Source: Chitinophagaceae bacterium 26-R-25 (GTDB lineage Bacteria; Bacteroidota; Bacteroidia; Chitinophagales; Chitinophagaceae). Taken from it: 64,000 bases of DNA. The DNA lies in NCBI GenBank assembly GCA_029906195.1, contig JARWSJ010000001.1:1736001-1800000 (forward strand), given 5' to 3'. Below, in pieces: positions 1,086-62,416 of this stretch (position 1 is the first letter of the stretch; the number at the start of each line of letters is the position of its first letter). The position numbers and the translations under genes were made by a program. Under the pieces are notes generated by a model. The model ran no database searches. It was not told where the DNA came from and saw only the letters and a list, made by a program, of their open reading frames with translations.

Positions 1086-1631
1086 ATGAAAAAGTCTCTA
1101 TTGATTCTAATTGCTTCTATCTCGTCGCTCAGCATCTTTGCGCAGGATGATGTAGTGATCAAAGGTTCCGGCGCTACTCCTGTTACGGAGCAAATGGCTC
1201 CTAAAAAAGTTGTTGATAGTCTTCACCAAAGATTTCCCGATGCGAAGTCTGTTCAGTATTTCAAAGCAAATCCTGCTAATGTAAAAAAATGGAACATTAC
1301 GCATGAAGACAATTTGCAATCTGGTGAAACCATTGACCACTACACCATTAGTTTCAAACGGGATGACATGCAATATTATGGTTTGTACGATGCAAACGGA
1401 CACTTGCTGGTATCAAGACTTGAACAAAAAGACGCAGAACTTCCCGAAGCGGTAAAAGCTTCTCTTAAAAAAGCAGGTGAAGGAAAAGGATACACTATAG
1501 TAGACAAAACTTATTATAAAACCAGCAACTACGGCAATCACAAAGAATACTACGAAGTAACCGCCACCAACGGTTCTAAGAAGAAGAAAGTGATTGTTGC
1601 GCCGGATGGCACGATTGTAAAAGTTAAATAG
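1086..1631 (+). CDS. Secreted PepSY-like (BLIP-like) protein
   Basis: 181 residues with a signal peptide (MKKSLLILIASISSLSIFAQ, cleavage after FAQ). The mature part holds two similar segments with the pattern 'VVDSLHQRFPDAKSVQY... WNITHE... YTISFKRDDMQYYGLYDANGHLL' and 'LPEAVKASLKKA...YTIVDKTYYKT...YYEVTATNGSKKKKVIVAPDGTIVK'. This is the layout of the putative beta-lactamase-inhibitor-like PepSY fold common in Bacteroidota periplasmic proteins. No enzyme motif is seen; a periplasmic binding or inhibitor role is only a family inference. The TAG stop is the first triplet of a tandem octamer arm (taggaattag...). Confidence 0.65.
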   Translation: MKKSLLILIASISSLSIFAQDDVVIKGSGATPVTEQMAPKKVVDSLHQRFPDAKSVQYFKANPANVKKWNITHEDNLQSGETIDHYTISFKRDDMQYYGLYDANGHLLVSRLEQKDAELPEAVKASLKKAGEGKGYTIVDKTYYKTSNYGNHKEYYEVTATNGSKKKKVIVAPDGTIVKVK

Positions 1632-1723
1632 GAATTAGAAATTAGGAATTAGAAGAAAGCAGCATCCACTAGTAAATGGTGCACTCTTCTAATTCCTAAC
1701 TCCTAATTTCTAATTCCTAATTA
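1629..1723. repeat. Paired inverted octamer arms (aattagga type) between convergent genes
   Basis: Arm A 1629-1655 and arm B 1685-1723 are tandem variants of aattagga and its complement. They sit exactly between two convergent genes; arm A contains the stop of the left gene and arm B the stop of the right gene. A transcript from either side would fold into a long A/U-rich hairpin, so a bidirectional terminator role is plausible. Confidence 0.75.
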
Positions 1724-10003: not shown

Positions 10004-10172
10004 GCCCCCGATCGAGGAATAGGAATTAGGAATTAGAAATTAGAAATTAAGAATTCTCTAATGGCAACATTGGTTTTTGAATTCGTGCTTCCAACGACTT
10101 TACATAAGAGAAATGCTACAACACAAACCCCTCGTAGCACAGAATGCATTTTCAACTTTCAACTTTCAACTT

Positions 10173-23800: not shown

Positions 23801-23951
23801 TGCAGGAATTAAGAATTAAGAATTAGGAATTAAGAATGCGTTGTGTGTAACATTCTTGTGAGCCACCCTCCTTTCCTCTGTGAAAAAAACTCTGTTATCT
23901 CTGTGGTAAAAAACTGCAGCAAACAAATGCGGTTAAAAAAAACAAAAAAGA

Positions 23952-38375: not shown

Positions 38376-38566
38376 AGGAATTAGGAATTAGAAAATAGGA
38401 ATTAGGAATTCTTTATGAGTCAAGCTTCAATACTTGGCGACCATTTTTGTGTTTAAAGTGTTCAGACAGACAGCATACAAACAAAAAGACCCGATCGGTT
38501 TACTAACCTATCAGGTCTTTTGCATTATTTCTAATTCCTAATTTCTAACTCCTAATTCCTAATTAC
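38376..38566. repeat. Paired inverted octamer arms (aattagga type) around a terminator
   Basis: Arm A 38376-38411, arm B 38526-38566. The hairpin at 38484-38523 is between them, so a conventional terminator can lie inside the arms. The stop of the FAH gene is within arm B. Together these fill the 325-base gap between lepB and the FAH gene. Confidence 0.75.
38484..38523 (-). terminator. Intrinsic terminator after the FAH gene
   Basis: aaaagacc-cgat ... atc-aggtcttt stem with T-run on the minus strand (and a shorter one on the plus strand). Confidence 0.65.
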
Positions 38567-53334: not shown

Positions 53335-53404
53335 AATCTTGATGTGTTGAATAATAATTATGGCTTTAGAACCTCTGGTGAGAGAAGAAAAATAGATGCA
53401 GTAT

Positions 53405-53492
53405 GTCATCTGACTTTTCCCTACGCCGGTATCAACCGAATCAGGTTCAAAGGGACTATCTCAATTCTTTTCAGAATACCCCTAAAGCCGGT
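53405..53492 (-). promoter_or_regulatory. TPP (thiamine pyrophosphate) riboswitch, THI element
   Basis: On the minus strand the leader runs ccggctttaggggtattctg..., then ctgaa, then the pyrophosphate sensor ccctttgaacctgattcgg, then ttgataccggcgtagggaa. The conserved THI-box blocks GGGGT, CCCTTTGAACCTGAT and GCGTAGGGAA are all in order. It precedes thiM and should turn down thiM-thiE-thiD-tenA when TPP is high. Confidence 0.93.
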
Positions 53493-53496
53493 TAAA

Positions 53497-53805
53497 ATTA
53501 GGAATTTTTAATTAGGAATTAGAAACTAGGAATTAGGAATTAGAAGTTTCGGGCGCAAAATGCATTAAATATGCGACTTTTAAAGAACAAATAAATTATG
53601 GCTACACAGAATTGTCAACCTAATTTAGTGATATTAGTCTATCCAAAGGAACGCAAGAAACAATTAATAAGCGCGTTAGACTTTCGCGAGAACAATTCAT
53701 AATTCACAATTGTTAGTGTTATTGTTAGTCTTACAATATTCTGCTACGCCTATCAATTCCTAATTCCTAATCCCTAATTCCTAATTCCTAATTCCTAATT
53801 CCTAT
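53497..53805. repeat. Longest paired inverted octamer arms (aattagga type), rest of gap empty
   Basis: Arm A 53497-53546, arm B 53754-53805, each about 50 bases. They separate the thi operon from the SIR2 gene. Between the arms (53547-53753) nothing gene-like is seen. Confidence 0.7.
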
Positions 53806-53809
53806 CTCC

Positions 53810-55618
53810 ATGGCCCCGTCAACAAAGATCTTCCCCGAAAAGATCAGAGAAAAATCTTACCTGCAATATAAGATCCAGCAAAAGCATGAATACTGGAAAA
53901 CGCCGAAAAGTGCGCTGTTGCTAGGTGCCGGCTGTTCTTATCCTGTAGTGCCACTGGGTTCTGGCATTATAAAGTATTGTCAGCAGCTGAGTTTTATAAG
54001 AGACAAGTTTCCCTTGTTTGCAGCGGAACTGCATGCCAATTTCCTGGCAAAACCAGGCACGGAACTGATCGACAAATTCTTCCAGGAAAAGTTAATCAAC
54101 CAACAAAATTTTGAAGATTATGTAACAGAAAAAGAAAAAATAATTGCGCAGAATATCTTGAAGGTTAAAACGGAAGAACTGAAAAAGCTGCGGAGCTTTG
54201 TGCCGGATGCAGAATGGGACGATTATGAAAAACATCTTGTATCTGATGCCAGGTATGGCTTTTGGATGGATGCATATAGCAGCAGCCCAAGAGAACGACA
54301 ACGGCTGGTAGAGGCATTGATTGAAGAATGTAATCCCGGGGGTGCCTATGTTATACTTGCCCACATGATCGAGAAGGGATATTTCAACAATATACTTACC
54401 ACGAACTTCGACGACTTCATTAATGAAACGATGGCTTATTATACGTCCAAACGTGTAAGGTTCTTTGCCGACGATGAGATCAGCCAGTTTATTTCCATCT
54501 ACGGCAATAAGCCAAACATTATTAAGCTGCATGGCGACTATCGCTATGCGAACATTAAAAACACCACTGACGAGACGCTTCGACTATCAAAAAGCATGGA
54601 AGAAAAATTACGGGAACTATTGGTTAATCTTGATCTCATCGTAATTGGTTACAACGGTTCCGACTATTCCATCATGAATGTTCTACAACAAATGAAATCG
54701 CCCAACTGTGAATTGCTTTGGTGTGGGCTCGACGAAAACGATGTACACTGGCGGGTAGCCAATCTCATCAACACCACCTCAAACAGCTGGTTCATCAAGA
54801 TCAAGGACTTCGATGATGTGATCAGCGATTTCTATTACCAGTTCCTTGAAAAGTCGCTCGCCCCCATCGAAAGAGCGAAAAAACGTGAGGATGAGTTTAA
54901 TCGCTATATACTGGAGATCTCCAAAAAGGTAAAAGAAAATGCGTCTCAATCTGAGATCAATAAACTGGAAAAACAGGAATTGGTTTGGGACCTTATCAAT
55001 AAAACAAACAAGGAAACAGATCAGGAAAAACGTTTCTACCTGCTTTCAGAAATACTTATACACGATCCTGGTTTTGCCGACGCTTATATGCATCGCGGCT
55101 TTATTTACGTGGATGATAAAAGAGATTATGACAATGCAATAAAAGACTTTACGAGTGCCATTGGGCTGGATGATAAAAACGCGTCTGCCTACCGCGGTCG
55201 TGGCTGGGCCTATACAGAAAAGGGGAACTTTGAACTTGCTTTGAAAGACCTGGATATTGCTGTCAACCTTGTAGAAGCAAGCAGCATCTCAAACTTTGAA
55301 AAATCGGTGTTCTACAATACCCGCGGCTTTTATTTTCTACAAACAAAACAATATGCAGAAGCAATTGCCGATCTCGAGAAAGCACTGCAGCTGGATCCTT
55401 CTTACGAGTACCCCTACAAGCATTTGGCAGAGGTTTATTACAGACAGGAGAACTACAGCATTGCTTTGGAGATGGCAAACAAAGCTATCGATCTTGACAA
55501 AAATTATCGTGCAGCCTACCAGGTAAGGAGCAGGATATACAAAGCGTTAAACCTTCCCGATCTTGCCGTGCAAGACGAGGAAACAGCAAAGACGCTAGAA
55601 AAAGGTCAAACAAACTAA
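53810..55618 (+). CDS. SIR2-TPR protein, candidate anti-phage NADase
   Basis: 602 residues, no signal peptide. Residues about 30-350 are a SIR2-type NAD-binding domain: GAGCS at 39-43, TTNFDD at 197-202, KLHGDYR at 239-245 (catalytic His in LHG) and GYNGSDYS at 280-287. The Asn and His of these motifs are the NADase residues in SIR2-type phage-defence proteins. Residues about 405-600 contain about five TPR units (for example AYMHRGFIYVDDKRDYDNAI, AYRGRGWAYTEKGNFELAL, AIADLEKALQLDPSYEYPY). It is a single-gene unit between hairpins. A defence role is inferred from family behaviour; its trigger is unknown. Confidence 0.8.
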   Translation: MAPSTKIFPEKIREKSYLQYKIQQKHEYWKTPKSALLLGAGCSYPVVPLGSGIIKYCQQLSFIRDKFPLFAAELHANFLAKPGTELIDKFFQEKLINQQNFEDYVTEKEKIIAQNILKVKTEELKKLRSFVPDAEWDDYEKHLVSDARYGFWMDAYSSSPRERQRLVEALIEECNPGGAYVILAHMIEKGYFNNILTTNFDDFINETMAYYTSKRVRFFADDEISQFISIYGNKPNIIKLHGDYRYANIKNTTDETLRLSKSMEEKLRELLVNLDLIVIGYNGSDYSIMNVLQQMKSPNCELLWCGLDENDVHWRVANLINTTSNSWFIKIKDFDDVISDFYYQFLEKSLAPIERAKKREDEFNRYILEISKKVKENASQSEINKLEKQELVWDLINKTNKETDQEKRFYLLSEILIHDPGFADAYMHRGFIYVDDKRDYDNAIKDFTSAIGLDDKNASAYRGRGWAYTEKGNFELALKDLDIAVNLVEASSISNFEKSVFYNTRGFYFLQTKQYAEAIADLEKALQLDPSYEYPYKHLAEVYYRQENYSIALEMANKAIDLDKNYRAAYQVRSRIYKALNLPDLAVQDEETAKTLEKGQTN

Positions 55619-55621
55619 ATG

Positions 55622-55652
55622 GCACTGTTGACCTTTTAGAGGTCAACAGTGC
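55622..55652 (+). other. Perfect 12-bp hairpin directly after the SIR2-TPR stop
   Basis: GCACTGTTGACC-ttttaga-GGTCAACAGTGC, stable but without the U-run of a classical terminator. It begins 3 bases after the stop codon. Confidence 0.75.
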
Positions 55653-55664
55653 TAAAGAAAGACT

Positions 55665-55757
55665 GCTTGTCATCCCGACGAAGGAGGGATCTGAGTGCTT
55701 ACTTAAACAGCGGGTTATGTGGTAGATCCAGATCCCTCCTTCGTCGGGATGACAAGC
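55665..55757. repeat. 28-bp perfect inverted repeat
   Basis: gcttgtcatcccgacgaagg (55665 onward, 28 bases) faces its complement at 55730-55757 across 37 bases. The remainder of the 442-base gap to 56060 carries a lone aattagga-type arm near 55796-55813 and a terminator, but no gene. Confidence 0.85.
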
Positions 55758-55952
55758 AACATTCTTTTAATTTTTCAAACAGCCTTCTCAGGCAATCGCC
55801 TAACTCCTAATTCCTGAAAATGTGTACAGCACACCCCACTCATTTTCAGAAAATCAAAATCCCCTTTGCAAATCCCACTACCAAAGGAGGGAACATTTTT
55901 TGCAAGGATTAATTTGCGCGGTTGACGCGCTCATCATTTCAGCTATTGACAT

Positions 55953-62285: not shown

Positions 62286-62416
62286 GGACAATTAAGAATT
62301 AAGAATTGCCTAGGTGCAGCATTCAATACCAACAATAACTTCAAGATTGTTTGCCGGTAATGAGAAAAATTGCACTGTGAAGAATTCTTAATTCTTAATT
62401 CCTAATTCTTAATTCG
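62286..62416. repeat. Paired inverted arms (aattaagaatt type) between convergent genes
   Basis: Arm A 62286-62308, arm B 62381-62416. Confidence 0.7.

Follow-up and report, generated by a model that had tools for sequence, protein, structure and literature searches.

A solitary SIR2-TPR gene of the genus Pinibacter as a candidate one-gene immune NADase

In the present study, a gene coding for a protein with a SIR2 domain and tetratricopeptide repeats (TPRs) was analysed in a 64,000-nucleotide stretch of Chitinophagaceae bacterium 26-R-25 (contig JARWSJ010000001.1), and this whole stretch is called the window here. The gene is flanked by a divergent TPP riboswitch and thiM cluster upstream and by a DUF4382 gene downstream. 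The features of the locus are as follows:

53401-53493, minus strand: TPP riboswitch of the divergent thiM cluster, a neighbour outside the system (Rfam RF00059, 71.9 bits)
53496-53804 (53496-53548 and 53755-53804), no strand: inverted AATTCCT-type arrays upstream of the gene (repeat scan)
53810-55618, plus strand: SIR2-TPR gene, 602 aa, ATG start, an intact single open reading frame with orthologues at L004 and L005
53846-54877, plus strand: predicted SIR2 NADase domain, residues 13-356 (VIA-align to the SPARSA Sir2 chain 8y80_E, alignment A1, pLDDT)
53924-53938, plus strand: GAGCS, residues 39-43, glycine-rich NAD-binding loop (NAD-contact role according to PMC10781750)
54398-54415, plus strand: TTNFDD, residues 197-202, with N199, F200 and D201 (aligned to N142, F143 and D144 of SPARSA)
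54524-54541, plus strand: KLHGDY, residues 239-244, with H241 (aligned to the catalytic H186 of SPARSA)
54647-54664, plus strand: GYNGSD, residues 280-285, with Y281 (Y226) and D285 (D230; SPARSA counterparts by alignment)
54947-55612, plus strand: C-terminal TPR helical array, residues 380-601, presumed sensor (Pfam TPR, pLDDT, VIA matches to TPR structures)
55622-55652, no strand: perfect 13-bp hairpin right after the stop codon, terminator-like on the minus strand in the scan
55653-55769, no strand: 41-nt inverted repeat, 88% complementary, a copy of a genome-wide hairpin family

The open reading frame of 602 aa is far beyond chance, since orthologues with a dN/dS of 0.063-0.072 exist in two other Pinibacter species. 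A sequence-only reading of this DNA had stated that the SIR2 motifs are intact and that TPRs follow where a sensor would be, and both statements were borne out. The motifs GAGCS, TTNFDD, KLHGDY and GYNGSD are all complete, and the Pfam model SIR2_2 (PF13289) was found at residues 194-297 with 40.9 bits against a gathering cut-off of 24.5. Several TPR models of Pfam exceeded their cut-offs, with the best stretches within residues 436-574, and TPR_1 reached 66.2 bits against a cut-off of 27.8, which identifies a TPR protein. In the AlphaFold2 model (31-row alignment, mean pLDDT 75.3, pTM 0.52), strands and helices alternate to about residue 346 and helices alone are seen thereafter. Residues 391-600 were modelled with a mean pLDDT of 79-98 per ten-residue block, with 83-98 for the blocks of residues 401-600, and by Pfam, predicted model and fold matches the C-terminal half is an ordinary TPR superhelix. 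Residues 45-140 and about 341-380 are low-confidence regions, therefore the arrangement of the SIR2 and TPR parts in the model is not to be trusted. The first of these regions corresponds to a helical insertion in the SIR2 domain, at about residues 45-140, that is absent or shorter in the relatives of alignment A1.

The gene had also been described as lying between long hairpins. The hairpins are present, but they are not specific to the locus. The downstream hairpin arm CATCCCGACGAAGGAGGGATCT, searched as a 22-mer with at most one mismatch, had 98 matches in the 6.5-Mb genome, many of them paired about 60 bases apart, against 0 matches for a reversed-pattern control, and the family to which 55653-55769 belongs is REP- or MITE-like. 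The seven-base AATTCCT arrays recur at five more sites of the window (1626-1722, 10017-10055, 23807-23838, 38379-38564 and 62290-62414), several as inverted pairs. Since these are genome-wide repeats, the hairpins were rejected as attachment ends or as a part of the system. A Bacteroidota-type promoter pattern had no match in the window (0.58 expected), and sigma-70-like sites were not above shuffles (4 found, 5.4 expected). In agreement with the description of a solitary gene without recognisable partner or mobile element, the seven proteins encoded around it in the window had no PADLOC match at E<=1e-5, and mobile-element genes were not found among the neighbours scanned with Pfam and PADLOC. 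PIWI (PF02171) was not found in the genome at E<=1e-3 with a Pfam model that may miss divergent short pAgos; the control search was positive in one of 14 genomes. A hidden partner was rejected as far as tested, as there was no PADLOC match in the neighbours and no genomic PIWI.

With respect to the enzyme half, the nearest solved relatives by sequence (HMMER) were GsSir2 of SPARSA (E 1.7e-10; reference structures PDB 8in8, 8jkz and 8y80) and then KomC (E 5.6e-5). When residues were counted by eye on the HMMER alignment, N199 fell on N142 and H241 on H186 of GsSir2. In addition, F200, D201 and Y281 match F143, D144 and Y226, and Y149 and R245 match Y89 and R190. According to PMC10781750, the NADase activity of GsSir2 is lost in N142A and H186A, F143A, D144A and Y226A likewise fail, and the double mutant Y89A/R190A is inactive. 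The residues N199, F200, D201, H241 and W304 are invariant in 57 of the 57 aligned SIR2 domains. The VIA fold comparison, in which the best 1000 Foldseek chains were re-examined, gave the SPARSA Sir2 chain 8y80_E as the best SIR2 fold match (Z 24.0, rmsd 2.9, 268 residues aligned), and other matches were the defence NADases KomC (Z 19.1) and SeThsA (7uxt, Z 18.3). In the ranking of Foldseek itself, TPR chains were on top and 8y80_E was eighth (E 8.1e-8). From the catalytic-residue alignment, the invariance over 57 domains and the fold matches, we infer that the SIR2 domain is very probably a competent NADase, which would hydrolyse NAD. The Asn-His pair is also common to eukaryotic sirtuin deacetylases, as stated in PMC10781750, and this would also suit a classical sirtuin-type deacylase or ADP-ribosyltransferase whose TPRs select the substrate. 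However, the NCBIfam deacylase model reached no more than 10.6 bits (E 0.2), where the cut-off is 243, the sequence and fold matches go to NADases of the SIR2_2 group, and a Pfam scan of four neighbours showed no macrodomain; this reading is improbable in our judgement. Apart from this, HRD replaces HGD in some SIR2-TPR proteins (L133, L140, L141, L147, L048 and others), and R follows the catalytic His in 11 of the 57 SIR2 rows.

Among the known systems, SPARSA has the nearest SIR2 by sequence, PADLOC and fold, with the catalytic pair in common. SPARSA carries APAZ C-terminal to SIR2, whereas the window protein has no APAZ match and has TPRs instead; the best PADLOC match, to the SPARSA SIR2 part, stops at residue 368, which is position 315 of the 1010 positions of the model. 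SPARSA also has a short pAgo partner, but the neighbours here are thiM and the DUF4382 gene, and the PIWI search of the genome (E<=1e-3) was negative as given above. The closest mechanistic model is DSR2, likewise one chain with an N-terminal SIR2 effector and a C-terminal sensor, in which binding of the phage tail tube protein by the sensor activates the SIR2 NADase (PMC10981675). Unlike DSR2, whose model has 1222 positions, the window protein has 602 aa with TPRs in the place of the sensor, and no Dsr2 model was among its PADLOC matches listed at E<=1. ThsA of Thoeris has the SIR2 NADase fold in common (Z 18.3 to 7uxt), but Thoeris consists of a SIR2-SLOG ThsA and ThsB, and here no SLOG was found by Pfam, no ThsB in the seven neighbours and no ThsA model among the PADLOC matches listed for the protein. 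Avs5 (AVAST type 5) also has a SIR2 effector and C-terminal repeats, of TPR type in PaAvs5-1 and PaAvs5-2, with a STAND NTPase between them (PMC12931631). The window protein, in contrast, has no NTPase match in Pfam, and in the AlphaFold2 model helices run from residue 353 straight into the repeats with no STAND NTPase between. SIR2-HerA (Nezha) has an adjacent HerA ATPase, whereas none is among the scanned neighbours. The SIR2 part also matches PDC-S65, a phage-defence candidate of PADLOC (E 6.4e-19), over residues 138-403 only, and no paper on PDC-S65 by name was found in the literature search. Membership in SPARSA, DSR2, Thoeris, Avs5 and SIR2-HerA was thus rejected feature by feature, and the product is a SIR2_2 protein without the extra features tested as defining these five systems. 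A tested two-domain SIR2-TPR defence was not found in a literature search outside which most subscription papers lay, and this is no proof of absence.

The history of the gene was followed in Pinibacter, where orthologues have 92-93% and 81% amino-acid identity in two other species. The gene and its synteny were found in all three Pinibacter genomes examined. The gene order at the locus is shared by Pinibacter aurantiacus (L004) and by P. soli (L005), of whose DNA L007 and L008 are second copies. The window was assigned to Pinibacter because these two species are the ones classed in its genus among the matched genomes. Whole-gene dN/dS was in the above range in all three comparisons, with 0.030-0.107 for the seven neighbours. 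The catalytic block (residues 131-365) was the most constrained (dN/dS 0.016 and 0.027) and the TPR part the fastest-changing half (0.127 and 0.124, residues 400-602). Between the window and P. soli, identity was 68.5% in the TPR part and 91.1% in residues 131-365, and it was 85.8-93.9% in the neighbours. At four-fold sites, the divergence of the gene equals that of the seven neighbours within error, and the gene has therefore been inherited vertically with its surroundings. A recombined P. soli allele was considered on the NG86 dS of 1.86 against 0.69-1.43 for the neighbours, yet it was rejected because the four-fold sites of the gene (0.549, 0.469-0.630) and of the pooled neighbours (0.487, 0.457-0.520) do not differ beyond error. 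The reading frame of the P. soli orthologue is interrupted by an in-frame stop just past the GAG loop, at codon 60 of the alignment (L005 8172-8174), and the frame beyond it is open and conserved. This stop codon rests on one assembly, in which it was seen twice, and it is either a recent loss or an assembly error.

Outside the genus, SIR2-part queries were used for the counts, because searches with the whole protein were swamped by TPR matches. At E<=1e-5 the distribution was patchy, with matches in 10 of the 294 family genomes, three of which are Pinibacter. At E<=1e-8, 14 of 395 genomes were matched phylum-wide and 14 of 396 order-wide, the own genome being included in each. Nothing close was found beyond the genus, where identity in the matched part was at most 33%. 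Because it is rare in the family and broken in P. soli, the gene looks dispensable; because of its low dN/dS and the tightest values in the catalytic block, it has been under selection, so that the gene is selected yet apparently dispensable. The three Pinibacter rows stand together in the tree on an isolated, weakly placed long branch of 2.04 changes per column, and function was transferred by analogy because of this long isolated stem. Rows with TPRs stand at four places of the tree, and independent TPR fusions were not claimed since the deep branches are weak and long. Two other relatives (L134 9436-11976 and L143 9404-12157) have SIR2 and a long C-terminal part, Schlafen/AlbA-like by eye, with another gene close behind each SIR2 gene.

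A search for homologues in defence islands, which had been proposed as a check, was carried out on eight Bacteroidota relatives in 20-kb stretches, six with TPRs and two with helical repeats without Pfam TPR. From 20 stretches taken, one (L150) had no complete SIR2 ORF, and 11 of the remaining 19 belonged to the TPR or helical-repeat class, assigned by eye except for L131, L132, L145, L146 and L147, which were scanned with Pfam; the APAZ and Schlafen-like classes were excluded. A same-contig control was available for eight of these 11 (L137, L141 and L147 were left out), and six of the 14 control stretches were unused. After removal of the SIR2 ORFs, 103 proteins of at least 150 aa, taken as mechanical non-overlapping longest ORFs and not as annotations, were compared with 103 from other 20-kb parts of the eight contigs. 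At E<=1e-15, PADLOC, which includes generic models, found eight families in the test set and seven in the control set with one member each, so in this small sample there was no excess. Restriction-type and PDC-S60 matches were obtained in the test set, whereas ThsB and two components of Mads were matched in the control set. For these eight relatives a location in islands is thus not evident, and neither they nor the seven window neighbours indicated a defence island. The window gene, which is solitary and has core genes around it, fits this result. The sequence-only reading had further set a defence role against homologues that lie mainly in housekeeping operons. This description, as worded, does not apply, because the gene points away from one neighbour, has hairpins between itself and the other, and is broken in one species; yet the Pfam families around the eight relatives look largely housekeeping (best 25 of 141 families).

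An alternative is an endogenous stress or developmental effector, whose TPRs would bind a host protein or a signalling peptide in the manner of Rap or NprR, and whose SIR2 domain would lower NAD or ADP-ribosylate a host target, in the service of growth regulation and not primarily against viruses. TPRs are binders of proteins or peptides, and Rap, NprR and TPR scaffolds are among the structures matching the TPR half (VIA). The genus-wide synteny, a purifying selection of nearly the same strength as on the neighbours, the seven neighbours free of defence matches and the missing excess near relatives are in line with such an effector as well. On the other hand, the gene looks dispensable, as it is rare (10 of 294 family genomes, three of them of the genus) and broken in P. 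soli, the SIR2 half best matches immune NADases, and the TPR-half matches are unspecific because TPRs resemble one another. We hold such an effector to be unlikely.

Relatives in viruses were examined in two collections. Among 50,697 phage records, four match the protein. One is HfxHg1_085 (QRG24194.1) of Haloferax virus Halfgib1, with SIR2 and TPR, which has 27% identity over 73% of the query (residues 121-561) and is located three genes from the integrase, i.e. with two genes between. It has the same architecture as the window protein but lacks the N-terminal insertion, and it is viral, whereas the gene here has a fixed chromosomal site. A sirtuin in Halfgib1 was already noted in PMC9503650. 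In a P2-like Vibrio phage the SIR2 gene lies between a CI-type repressor and the integrase, and in a PM2-like Vibrio phage it adjoins the integrase and was labelled 'SIR2APAZ' by the depositors. In IMG/VR, 55 loci were found, with 20-36% identity in the matched part; since this collection consists of viral contigs alone, it indicates that phages carry relatives, but not that most relatives are located in phages. These loci yielded 53 ORFs (none for L104 and L105) in 31 clusters at 70%, and 30 clusters were used in the neighbour scan and the tree, with L063 left out as it runs off its contig. Alignment A5 has 31 rows, including the window, and takes in 29 of the 53 viral ORFs. Of its 31 rows, the commonest TPR models each match nine, the window among them, and Pfam TPRs were found in two (L094 and L095) of eight viral proteins scanned, L051 and L055 being among those without. 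L089, L093 and L096 probably represent SPARSA pairs instead of solitary genes, because they cluster with SIR2-APAZ proteins in the tree and have a gene of 481-484 aa directly downstream.

In the 113 neighbours of the 30 viral loci, the best 25 of 167 PHROGs families included portal (4), gpA-type nicking protein (4), repressor (4), terminase (3) and two tail families (3 each). At L051, the upstream gene of 589 aa is a terminase by PHROGs, and from gene sizes and from the way in which the matching stretch is annotated in E. coli it follows that the SIR2 gene sits between a portal gene upstream and a gpA-type replication endonuclease gene downstream. In the best eight of 1776 E. coli records, phage genes were seen at the ends of this interval with other cargo inside, e.g. 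genes for a reverse transcriptase, an AAA ATPase or a DUF262 protein. In none of the E. coli records was the L051 stretch covered to 80%, and SIR2 cargo of the L051 type was in none of those seen. The interval between portal and gpA has been tested and described as a hotspot of anti-phage genes, and SIR2 is among the domains named in one of the figure legends (PMC9122126). The occurrence of relatives on plasmids and integrative viruses, together with one broken copy among three in Pinibacter, could also mean defence against plasmids or between elements, or the remnant of mobile-element cargo that is now little used and in decay. Against this stand the low whole-gene dN/dS with the catalytic block tightest, which shows past selection, and the scanned neighbours, which held no mobile-element gene, and it is highly improbable in our opinion.

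Taken together, the gene rather probably encodes a self-contained, one-gene abortive-infection NADase of immunity that is triggered through its TPRs. At rest, the active site of SIR2 would be held inactive. The TPR groove may then bind a protein that is made or changed during infection, and candidate triggers are a structural or early protein of the phage or a host protein altered by the phage. Binding of the trigger would change the oligomer, and the SIR2 domains would then hydrolyse NAD+ to ADP-ribose and nicotinamide, so that growth of the cell would stop or the cell would die ahead of phage release. The working is likened to that of DSR2, with TPRs as the putative sensor and the second gene absent. 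An immune NADase is supported by the SPARSA-type catalytic residues and a SIR2 fold near the defence NADases, by relatives that are cargo of integrative viruses, some of them in the portal/gpA interval, by the patchy distribution, by the constrained catalytic block beside a fast-changing TPR half and by the precedent of DSR2. It is weakened by the lack of a defence excess near the eight relatives and by a gene that is fixed and syntenic in the genus. Fast turnover is usual for defence genes. It is also weakened by viral relatives that are remote, have TPRs in part of them only and include some probable SPARSA pairs, and by the isolated Pinibacter branch, the poorly modelled residues 45-140 and the absence of L051-type cargo from the E. 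coli records seen. In the proposal of a self-contained defence system made earlier, the immune-type SIR2, the lack of a partner in the searches and the viral-cargo relatives thus spoke for it, but the locus is no defence island. As a narrower and more doubtful suggestion, the gene may code for a minimal immune receptor made of a SIR2 NADase and a TPR sensor, free of NTPase, messenger and Argonaute. It would have come off mobile elements and would now be a vertically inherited, genus-core gene of innate immunity that is fixed at a site outside islands, and its enzyme half would be conserved while its TPR recognition half evolves fast.

In bacterial immunity, SIR2 NADase effectors are met repeatedly, in combination with many sensors. 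If the immune NADase reading is true, a SIR2-TPR protein with neither NTPase nor partner would belong to the smallest sensor-effector receptors of this kind. Discovery based on islands would tend to miss such a gene because its site is outside islands, and the clean TPR arm would make screens for the trigger simple. Two further SIR2 loci were observed in the own genome. At L001 3-2505 (C1, about 271 kb) a SIR2 gene is followed by a gene for a HerA-type ATPase, and the PADLOC matches (SIR2 E 6.9e-86, HerA E 7.4e-103) suggest a probable SIR2-HerA defence pair. At L003 568-3267 (C6, about 47 kb) there is a long SIR2 protein with an open frame of 1306 aa, the first 900 aa of which matched Dsr2 (E 7.5e-32) and ThsA (E 4.3e-20) in PADLOC. 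Together with the window gene, the genome therefore has at least three SIR2_2 proteins.
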